Program-made: the position numbers and the translations under genes | DNA from: Aquaticitalea lipolytica | GTDB taxonomy: Bacteria; Bacteroidota; Bacteroidia; Flavobacteriales; Flavobacteriaceae | Direction: 5' to 3' | Assembly (NCBI RefSeq): GCF_014641635.1 | Contig: NZ_BMIC01000002.1 | Location: forward strand, 310,001-374,000 | Length of the DNA stretch: 64,000 bases | In this document: in pieces, positions 8,287-56,773 of the stretch | How positions within the stretch are numbered: position 1 is the first letter of the stretch | How the letters are laid out: each line of letters begins with the position of its first letter | Notes under the pieces: generated by a model | Database searches by the model: none | What the model was told of the DNA's origin: nothing | What the model saw: only the letters and a program-made list of their open reading frames with translations

Positions 8287-8332
8287 AATACTTATTTATT
8301 GTGTTGAATGTTCATTTTTAAATTCCTTTTGT

Positions 8333-8377
8333 TTAAGTCAATGATTATGCCAAGGAATGAATACTGACAAGCTGTCA
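8333..8377 (-). promoter_or_regulatory. putative heat-shock regulatory element upstream of dnaK
   Basis: In the dnaK direction the sequence reads TGACAGCTTGTCA (8377-8365), a perfect 5-bp-arm inverted repeat, then 22 bp, then ATTGACTTAA (8342-8333), which ends 46 bp before the start codon. The same layout with the same 22-bp spacing stands before clpB, where the half-sites are CGACA/TGTCT and the 10-mer is identical. TTGG also occurs at the same place in both spacers. A consensus TAnnTTTG -7 is not obvious. It may be an alternative promoter or an activator/repressor site. Confidence 0.65.
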
Positions 8378-8431
8378 TTTTTTGTCATAAACTTTATAAT
8401 TAAAAGATAATGGATTCCTTTAAAAACCCTT

Positions 8432-8439
8432 TATATTTG
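8432..8439 (+). promoter_or_regulatory. -7 promoter element for serine deaminase
   Basis: TATATTTG matches the Bacteroidetes -7 consensus TAnnTTTG, 23 bp before the ATG at 8463. No clear -33 TTG is seen at the expected distance. The predicted transcription start near 8445 leaves a short leader. Confidence 0.5.
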
Positions 8440-8462
8440 CTTTACTAAAACGATTGAGTAAT

Positions 8463-53980: not shown

Positions 53981-54062
53981 AATTCGTATTTTATTTATTT
54001 AAGTCGCACAATCATTAAAATCTTACAATAAGACAAAAAGTCACTCTATTGCAGTGATTTAA

Positions 54063-54107
54063 CGACATTTTGTCTTTAAAAATGTATTGGTAAGATAATT
54101 GACTTAA
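54063..54107 (+). promoter_or_regulatory. putative heat-shock regulatory element upstream of clpB
   Basis: CGACATTTTGTCT (54063-54075), then 22 bp, then ATTGACTTAA (54098-54107). Layout, spacing and the 10-mer are the same as upstream of dnaK (8377 to 8333). TTGG at 54087-54090 also aligns with TTGG in the dnaK spacer. A further GACAAAAAGTC dyad lies at 54032-54042, and TCACT/AGTGA arms at 54041-54057. The start codon is 62 bp downstream of the element. Confidence 0.65.
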
Positions 54108-54169
54108 CCTTTATGTAAAGAAAAAGAAATTGATTTCCTCTTACAAGGAAATAACGTAAATAAAATCAT

Positions 54170-56773
54170 ATGAATTTTAATAATTATACTATAAAATCGC
54201 AAGAAGCCATACAGCAAGCACAACAGCTTGCTCAAAGTTATGGTCATCAACAAATAGAAAACGAACACCTCTTTAAGGCTATTTCTGAAGTTGATGAAAA
54301 CGTATTACCATTTATTCTTAAAAAACTAAATGTAAACGAATTAGTATTACAACAAGCATTAGATAAGCAACTAGAAAGTTTTTCAAAAGTGTCTGGTGGA
54401 GACATCATGCTCTCACGCGAAGCTGGCAAAACGCTAAACGAAGCTTCAATTATAGCAAAAAAAATGAACGATGATTATGTGTCTATTGAACATTTAATTC
54501 TTGCTGTATTAAAGTCTAATAGTAAAATTGCACAAATGCTAAAAGATCAAGGTGTAACTGAAAAAGATTTAAAAGCTAGTATTAATGAATTACGCAAAGG
54601 CGATAGAGTTACTTCACAAAGTCAAGAAGAAACTTACAACTCACTTAATAAGTATGCAAAAAACCTAAACCAATTAGCAAAAGACGGAAAACTAGATCCT
54701 GTAATTGGTCGTGATGAAGAAATTCGTAGAATACTTCAAATTTTATCGCGTAGAACAAAAAACAACCCAATACTAGTTGGTGAGCCAGGTACAGGTAAAA
54801 CTGCTATTGCTGAGGGTTTAGCGCATAGAATTGTTGATGGCGATGTCCCTGAAAATTTAGTTGACAAACAAATTTTCGCACTAGATATGGGAGCGTTAAT
54901 CGCTGGAGCAAAATACAAAGGCGAGTTTGAAGAACGTTTAAAAGCAGTTATAAAAGAAGTTACTGAAAGTAATGGTGACATCGTACTCTTTATTGATGAA
55001 ATTCATACACTTGTTGGAGCTGGTGGTGGACAAGGCGCAATGGATGCAGCAAATATTTTAAAACCTGCATTAGCTCGTGGCGAACTTCGTGCAATTGGTG
55101 CTACAACCTTAGATGAGTATCAAAAATATTTTGAAAAAGATAAAGCACTAGAGCGTCGTTTCCAAAAAGTAATGGTCAACGAGCCAGATACCGAAAGTGC
55201 GATTTCTATACTTCGTGGAATTAAAGAAAAATATGAAACACATCATAAAGTTCGTATAAAAGACGAAGCTATCATTGGTGCTGTTGAACTTTCAGAGCGA
55301 TATATAACCAATCGCTTTTTACCAGATAAAGCTATTGACTTAATGGATGAAGCTGCTTCTAAATTACGAATGGAAATCAATTCAAAACCTGAAGAGTTAG
55401 ACGTTTTGGATAGAAAAATTATGCAATTGGAAATAGAGATTGAGGCTATAAAAAGAGAAAAAGATGAAACAAAACTGAAATCGCTTCGTTCGGATTTAGC
55501 AAATTTAAAAGAAGAACGTAATGAGATTAATGCAAAGTGGAAAAGTGAGAAAGAAGTTGTAGATAATATTCAAACTGCAAAAGCAAATATTGAAGATTAT
55601 AAACTTGAAGCAGAACGTGCTGAACGAGAAGGTGATTACGGCAAAGTAGCGGAATTACGTTATGGGAAGATTAAAGAAGCGCAAGAGCATTTAGAAAAAC
55701 TTCAAAAAGAGTTGCAAAAAAATCAAAATGAAAGCTCTTTAATAAAAGAAGAAGTAACTTATGAAGATATCGCTGAAGTAGTTGCAAAATGGACAGGAAT
55801 ACCTGTAACCAAAATGATACAAAGCGAACGTGAGAAGCTTTTAAAACTTGAAGATGAGTTGCACAAACGCGTAGTAGGTCAAGAAGAAGCTATTGCAGCT
55901 GTAAGTGATGCTGTAAGACGTTCTAGAGCAGGATTACAAAACCCACAAAAACCTATTGGTACATTTTTATTCTTAGGAACAACTGGCGTTGGTAAAACAG
56001 AGCTTGCTAAAGCGTTGGCAGAGTATTTATTTGATGATGAAAACGCAATGACCAGAATAGATATGAGTGAATACCAAGAACGACATGCAGTTAGCAGATT
56101 AGTTGGTGCACCTCCAGGATATGTTGGTTATGATGAAGGAGGTCAACTCACTGAAGCAGTTCGAAGAAAACCATATTCAGTTGTTTTATTAGATGAAATT
56201 GAAAAAGCTCATCCAGATACGTTTAATATTCTATTACAAGTACTAGACGAAGGTCGCTTAACCGATAATAAAGGTCGTGTTGCAGACTTTAAAAACACAA
56301 TTATTATTATGACTTCTAATATGGGAAGCCAAATAATACAAGAGCGTTTTGAAGCTACTAAAGATATTGAATCTGCAATTGAAGCTGCGAAAGTAGATGT
56401 CCTTGCACTATTAAAACAAAGTGTAAGACCAGAATTTTTAAACAGAATTGATGATACTATAATGTTTACACCTTTAAGCCAAGCAAATATTACTGCTATT
56501 GTAGGCTTACAATTAAAAGGAGTAACCAAAATGTTAGCACAGCAAAACATTACATTCGATGCAACTAAAGAAGCAATTGAGTATTTAGCAAAAAAAGGCT
56601 ATAATCCAGAATATGGAGCAAGGCCAGTAAAACGAGTAATACAAAAAGAAGTGCTTAACGCATTAAGTAAAGAAATACTATCAGGTAAGGTTACAACAGA
56701 TAGTATAATATTACTTGATGAGTTTAATGATAACCTAGTGTTTAGAAACCAAAGTGATTTGGTGACTAAATAA
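54170..56773 (+). CDS. clpB: ATP-dependent chaperone ClpB (Hsp104 family disaggregase)
   Basis: An 867-aa hexameric AAA+ disaggregase working with DnaK. Order: N-domain (about 1-145), NBD1 with Walker A GEPGTGKT (204-211) and Walker [15 protein letters not shown], the coiled-coil M-domain (about 400-520, for example [20 protein letters not shown]), NBD2 with Walker A GTTGVGKT and Walker [14 protein letters not shown], and the C-terminal small domain ending [17 protein letters not shown]. The M-domain separates it from ClpA/ClpC. Single gene, terminated at 56797-56836. Its upstream element matches that of dnaK. Confidence 0.98.

Follow-up and report, generated by a model that had tools for sequence, protein, structure and literature searches.

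The dnaK and clpB genes of Aquaticitalea lipolytica are preceded by a common composite element, which is real and can largely be explained as a chaperone promoter of the sigma-54 type, a kind of promoter that is partly published. In our preferred reading, to which we assign a probability of about 0.65, each copy would combine a sigma-54 (RpoN) promoter with a proximal operator, and the likeliest reader of that operator would be a sigma-54 activator (here called the EBP) through which the chaperone genes are co-activated. A preliminary description, made from the window (the whole 64,000-nucleotide stretch that was analysed), had taken the element to be a shared chaperone control site and not a duplication. 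This holds, and further copies stand before htpG and groES in the same genome and before grpE elsewhere.

Upstream of dnaK, TGACAGCTTGTCA is followed after a spacer of 22 bp by ATTGACTTAA; upstream of clpB, CGACATTTTGTCT is followed, again after 22 bp, by the same ATTGACTTAA (Table 1). The equal spacing, and the equal position of TTGG within both spacers, had been described beforehand and are exact to the base. By itself the 10-mer is weak evidence and unremarkable: the window holds three copies against 0.71 expected, and the third lies within clpB, at 55334-55343. The dnaK operator lies in the intergenic region 8287-8462, which dnaK shares with a divergently oriented gene similar to L-serine dehydratase.

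Table 1. Positions of the promoter elements and genes at dnaK and clpB, numbered from the first letter of the window.
Feature	Position	Strand	Basis
dnaK operator, perfect palindrome TGACA-N3-TGTCA, 11 bp before TTGG	8365-8377	-	Sequence; gap 11 in 24/30 genera
dnaK sigma-54-type core TTGGCATAATCATTGAC, GA not GC at -12	8337-8353	-	-24/-12 geometry
10-mer ATTGACTTAA at dnaK, overlapping the -12 box	8333-8342	-	Sequence
dnaK, 634 aa	6382-8286	-	Named by eye from sequence
clpB proximal operator CGACATTTTGTCT, 11 bp before TTGG	54063-54075	+	Sequence; gap 11 in 22/30 genera
clpB distal palindrome AGACAAAAAGTCA, 32 bp farther upstream than the proximal one (43 bp before TTGG)	54031-54043	+	Sequence
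clpB sigma-54-type core TTGGTAAGATAATTGAC	54087-54103	+	-24/-12 geometry
10-mer ATTGACTTAA at clpB	54098-54107	+	Sequence
clpB, 867 aa	54170-56773	+	Named by eye from sequence

The upstream part of the element is a palindrome, TGACA-N3-TGTCA, that ends 11 bp before TTGG, and this register is conserved. We compared the regions upstream of dnaK, groES and clpB in 30 of 60 Flavobacteriaceae genomes, one per genus, picked as nearly complete; seven of them had no match in the family pattern search described below. The core TTGGYA...TTGNC was placed by score alone, with the palindrome unused, and TGACA-N3-TGTCA was then located at 7 or more of its 10 letters. It stands at a gap of exactly 11 bp in 24/30 dnaK, 25/30 groES and 22/30 clpB regions, against 1.1-1.4% per position, with binomial values only indicative because the 30 genomes are related. 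Among neighboring gaps, 12 bp adds four dnaK regions and 10 bp adds four clpB regions. With GG counted as -25/-24, the center of the proximal palindrome would lie near -45. At clpB, a second palindrome, again matching at least 7 of 10 letters, occurs at gap 43 in 23/30 genera.

Farther afield, in 17 distant groES genes, a best core was present, and the proximal palindrome was often reduced to a TTGTC half-site or indistinct. Matches to 9 of the 10 palindrome letters, 42-84 bp before these cores, were considered as a classical enhancer and rejected: by eye, many lie within a hairpin of the form TGTCAGG...CCTGACATTTTTT, which is probably the secG terminator, and we therefore draw no claim from them. 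As a separate observation, the hairpin in the secG-groES gap was seen at loci L335, L336, L338, L340, L344, L346 and L347, where its half-sites, TGTCA and TGACA, lie 50-75 bp upstream of the groES core. The secG terminator and a distal operator might overlap there.

A candidate for the reader is encoded next to groESL. PF00158 has ten matches above cut-off in this genome, three of them strong (E 7e-68 or better). The EBP, a protein of 422 aa (L074, 3162-4430), has an N-terminal AAA+ sigma-54 activator domain (PF00158, E 4.9e-67) with a GAFTGA-type loop, GSFTGA, then a linker and a C-terminal Fis-type HTH (PF02954, E 8.2e-12), and no receiver domain. Its AAA+ part scores 271 bits against the PspF-type family TIGR02974, below the cut-off of 443.55. 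The linker contains a conserved stretch like sERe.lYKvLFdmk.d..dlKkl, where, speculatively, a chaperone or a signal could act. The gene lies in a cluster ordered miaB-X-EBP-lptE-TPR-secG-groES-groEL. A second strong PF00158 protein, of 387 aa, is a response regulator without an HTH that has GAFTSA instead of GAFTGA; this receiver-plus-activator protein (L033, 1081-2241, on C3 of the same genome) adjoins a channel-like gene and may fail to activate in the usual way. Another is a PAS-GAF hybrid.

Within the class Bacteroidia, 79 of 80 genomes have a best match to the EBP at E ≤5.1e-94, with identities of 50-76% apart from the own genome and with 14 alignments over the AAA+ part only; class genome G111 has a paralogue-like match only. 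Beyond the class, identity of the best match is 42-54%, and in 20/55 genomes that match is as good as the weakest one in the class, so the EBP is older than the class. Its neighborhood is another matter. Among 20 class loci, taken from the 80 class genomes and covering 15 families, groES-groEL belongs to the EBP cluster in 17, versus 0/12 loci outside. The trait that follows the class is the EBP-groESL linkage, not the EBP itself. The strict form of the operator pattern, in a sample of the phylum, occurs in 9/37 class genomes and 0/111 outside (Fisher p 1.7e-6, with relatedness ignored; reversed control 0/148), and so misses most class genomes; two of the nine class matches, in G000 and G032, adjoin their dnaK. 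Binding of the EBP to TGACA-N3-TGTCA is suggested by this linkage and this range. An attempt to tie protein to operator through the recognition helix failed, as SERTLYRK is the same inside the class (29/30 proteins) and outside it (10/10).

The proposed mechanism runs as follows. RNA polymerase carrying sigma-54 would occupy TTGG(C/T)A-N6-TTG, and a dimeric regulator would sit on the palindrome, about 11 bp upstream of TTGG and centered near -45. This regulator, most likely the groESL-linked EBP, would switch on dnaK, grpE, htpG, groESL and clpB jointly, in the role that RpoH or HrcA has elsewhere. We infer both its part as activator and the signal, which would be protein damage or heat.

Several points count against the EBP as reader. 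The enhancers of such activators usually lie far upstream and are movable, so an operator fixed near -45 is unexpected; the strict operator pattern was found in 0/111 genomes outside the class, while the EBP and its SERTLYRK helix are present there; and the proximal groES site of distant families is often a half-site or indistinct. A less probable account, though one to be weighed seriously, is that the core is a sigma-54 core and the palindrome is read by some other protein, for example, a repressor or co-activator of chaperone genes, with the EBP acting from elsewhere or from solution. A position fixed near -45, odd for an EBP site, would fit a protein that contacts polymerase or stands in its way; the EBP recognition helix is alike in groups that have the strict pattern and in groups that lack it; and this genome encodes two more sigma-54 activators. 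However, the linkage of EBP and groESL tracks the range of the operator, and an unsystematic look noticed no other regulator beside the chaperone genes. We consider this account unlikely and retain the EBP as the preferred reader.

The sigma-54 assignment itself comes from the downstream half of the element. In this genome, the dnaK, clpB and htpG sites have in common TTGTC-N12-TTGG(C/T)A-N6-TTGAC, of which TTGG(C/T)A-N6-TTG has the -24/-12 geometry of sigma-54 promoters (GG-N10-G). The sigma-54 consensus is TGGCAC-N5-TTGCW. Carrera-Reyna et al. (2025, PMC12316311) give TGGCACN5-7TTGCT. At groES, TTGTC stands at the same distance from a canonical core, TTGTC-N12-TTGGCACATTTTTAGCA (TTGGCAC...GC). 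All four promoters have the GG doublet of TGG(C/T)A at -24 and 10 bp between it and the -12 doublet, which is GA at dnaK, clpB and htpG and the consensus GC at groES. Over the 90 promoters of the 30 genera, GG at -24 and G at -13 are present in 90/90, under a placing score that rewards both and has the GG to -12 spacing built in. The base at -12 is A in 54, C in 21, T in 13 and G in 2; by gene, it is A in 25/30 dnaK and 22/30 clpB promoters and C in 17/30 groES promoters. Under the TTGNC-weighted score, 30/30 dnaK, 24/30 clpB and 10/30 groES regions have a best core above the 99th percentile of shuffled sequence; the groES -12 box deviates from this score. Because dnaK, clpB and htpG have GA instead of GC, the case that their promoters work like sigma-54 promoters is stronger than the case that they fit the consensus; the predicted control of dnaK and clpB by sigma-54 is based on geometry and on a relative's mapped starts, with an imperfect consensus. 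Transcription would start near 8326 for dnaK and near 54114 for clpB. The genome encodes an RpoN in which all three of the sigma-54 Pfam domains are present, as well as at least one intact activator. RpoN is present in 60/60 family genomes, which makes the presence or absence of rpoN uninformative as a test within the family.

The preliminary description had also offered an alternative sigma promoter with TTGTC and ATTGAC as its boxes. The alternative sigma factor stands and the boxes do not: these are TTGG(C/T)A at -24 and TTG at -12, and TTGTC is half of the separate palindrome upstream of the core. That TTGTC and ATTGAC instead form the -33 and -7 boxes of a promoter for the primary sigma factor or another member of the sigma-70 family is very improbable. 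TTG does lie at a plausible distance from ATTG, and an ECF factor with such boxes would be compatible with the protein searches. Yet TTGG is conserved inside the supposed spacer, the groES core is canonical for sigma-54, and TAnnTTTG, sought from 25 bp before TTGG to the start codon, occurs in 2/90 promoters against 4.4 expected from shuffles, which leaves the primary-sigma version unsupported. The corresponding starts in Flavobacterium psychrophilum are, moreover, assigned to sigma-54 in the available text of Guerin et al. (2021, PMC9723704).

In the 3.14-Mb genome, GAC-N4-TGTC-N24-TTGACTTA without mismatch finds dnaK and clpB only (two matches). At up to 3 mismatches there is no genome-wide enrichment (47 matches versus 67 for the reversed control), nor is there any for the loose TGTC-N11-14-TGGYA-N6-TNG (11 versus 12). 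Since the loose patterns are unenriched, their value lies in which matches fall outside open frames: 7/11 are in frames that run for 150 codons or more without a stop, and the other four precede dnaK, clpB, htpG and groES. Four matches to the first pattern have 2 mismatches. L006 lies directly before htpG: its match ends 46 bp ahead of a GTG and 70 bp ahead of an ATG, both belonging to a frame recognized by eye as HtpG (MTKGNINVSVENIFPLIKKFLYS); L004 maps upstream of clpB on the opposite strand; L003 is within a long open frame; and for L005 no explanation was found. Across the 60 Flavobacteriaceae genomes, TTGTC-N12-TTGG-N8-TTGACT with at most 1 mismatch occurs in 46, with 87 matches versus 24 for the reversed pattern. 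At the 30 loci that this search gave, read by eye with minus-strand loci left unturned, the genes downstream include clpB, dnaK and htpG. They also include thioredoxin (L071) and secA (L050), each in another genus of the family and each with a TTGTC-N12-TTGG-type site at 1501-1535; genes other than the classical chaperones may also belong to the regulon.

On a wider scale, we scanned the contigs of 84,980 species for TGACA-N3-TGTCA-N10-13-TGGCA-N6-TTG, a pattern that favors dnaK-type sites, and found at least 117 stretches with at least 118 sites. Among the matches listed, 117/117 stretches carry record titles of Bacteroidota, including Flavobacteriaceae, Cryomorphaceae, Bacteroidales, Prevotellaceae, Alistipes, Dysgonomonas, Chitinophaga and Cyclobacteriaceae, and 112/118 sites precede dnaK, grpE, htpG, groESL or clpB. 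The next gene among these matches encodes DnaK at 65 sites, GrpE at 23 (with a Pfam GrpE match in 15/15 of the proteins tested), HtpG at 11, GroES/GroEL at 9, ClpB at 4 and none of these at 6. Of the six, L183 and L229 run off the retrieved sequence, L240 is the antisense of a groES site, and L180, L188 and L263 stand before other genes, with no explanation found. The gap to the TTGG-type core among the 118 sites listed is 11 bp in 94, 12 bp in 15, 10 bp in 9 and 9 bp in none, under a pattern whose shortest gap is 9 and which excludes gaps above 12. It had been envisaged that the motif might be absent in relatives or fall at random before unrelated genes; the palindrome register kept over 30 genera and the predominance of chaperone genes among the listed sites speak against both. 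That the two window sites are alike by chance or local conservation is next to inconceivable: neither the 10-mer alone nor the composite at up to 3 mismatches is rare, but one gap recurs in three unlinked promoters over 30 genera, and chaperone genes recur in the collection scan. As an observation apart, at L180 (minus strand of a Taibaiella MAG, CALMWT010000207.1, about 2050-2996) 32 bp separate the composite from a downstream SMODS/CD-NTase gene (PF18144, E 1.3e-9), after which comes a frame of 300 aa. This is possibly a defense operon under a chaperone-type promoter or else a chance match of the scan.

We put at about even odds the broader proposition that throughout the class Bacteroidia the core chaperone genes are controlled by one dedicated EBP, linked to groESL and working via sigma-54 from an operator locked near -45. 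If true, sigma-54 would be used here at short range and in a register-dependent way, and the chaperone circuit would be distinct in kind from those of RpoH and HrcA. An activator site for sigma-54 that is locked beside polymerase would challenge the picture of distant, movable enhancers. The open-licence literature says little about how chaperones are controlled in Bacteroidia, which make up much of the gut and marine bacteria. The outcome here is a promoter, an operator and a single candidate protein that can each be tested in laboratory strains.

Parts of this picture are published. In F. psychrophilum, sigma-54-type promoters with mapped starts are reported at groES-groEL, lon, dnaK, grpE-dnaJ, htpG, skp and clpB, and three PF00158 proteins are named as possible activators (PMC9723704). 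These SM4 promoters match ours in chaperone genes, in the -24/-12 description and in the three PF00158 activators; the available text differs in giving no fixed-distance palindrome and no named activator for the chaperone group. Its summary of the sigma-54 group lists blood agar, osmotic pressure, plasma and freshwater, with heat absent, and the SM4 mutagenesis it reports was done at remFG-sprCDBF and at no chaperone gene. A table in the same source places a sigma-54-dependent regulator with LptE under another motif; this is probably the same EBP. A second study predicts sigma-54 regulons and reports an enrichment of chaperone genes in those of Flavobacteriia and Bacteroidia; it also calls the grpE and groES promoters of Bacteroides thetaiotaomicron and F. 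psychrophilum sigma-54-dependent, citing another reference (PMC12316311). It differs from ours in predicting core promoters only, with no upstream activator site in its available text. The term "heat shock" does not occur in the available text of PMC7366714. We found no other description of an operator or activator of these chaperone promoters in the main text of the open-licence literature; an earlier one may exist. To call the regulator undescribed or poorly described was therefore partly wrong, because sigma-54-type chaperone promoters are published for F. psychrophilum (PMC9723704), and it remains apt for the locked operator and its probable reader, which we did not find described. As far as we have seen, the new elements are the locked palindromic operator, its use almost exclusively at chaperone genes in Bacteroidota records, the additional palindrome at clpB, and the activator linked to groESL as the operator's likely reader.

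The arrangement resembles two kinds of known system. First, like the heat-shock regulons of RpoH (sigma-32) and HrcA/CIRCE, in which one control element serves several chaperone genes, it has one element common to dnaK, grpE, groESL, clpB and htpG. It differs from them in that its core is of the sigma-54 type and that no CIRCE stands at these genes. Indeed, the reported absence of CIRCE is borne out: the window has none at up to 3 mismatches of 18, and the best match to TTAGCACTC-N9-GAGTGCTAA has at least 6 mismatches in each of the 90 dnaK, groES and clpB upstream regions of the 30 genera. Second, PspF-type EBPs have an N-terminal AAA+ sigma-54 activator domain, no receiver domain and a C-terminal Fis-type HTH. 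The EBP has the same domain order; it departs from the PspF type in a score below the family cut-off, a long linker, its clustering with groESL and a proposed operator close to the core.
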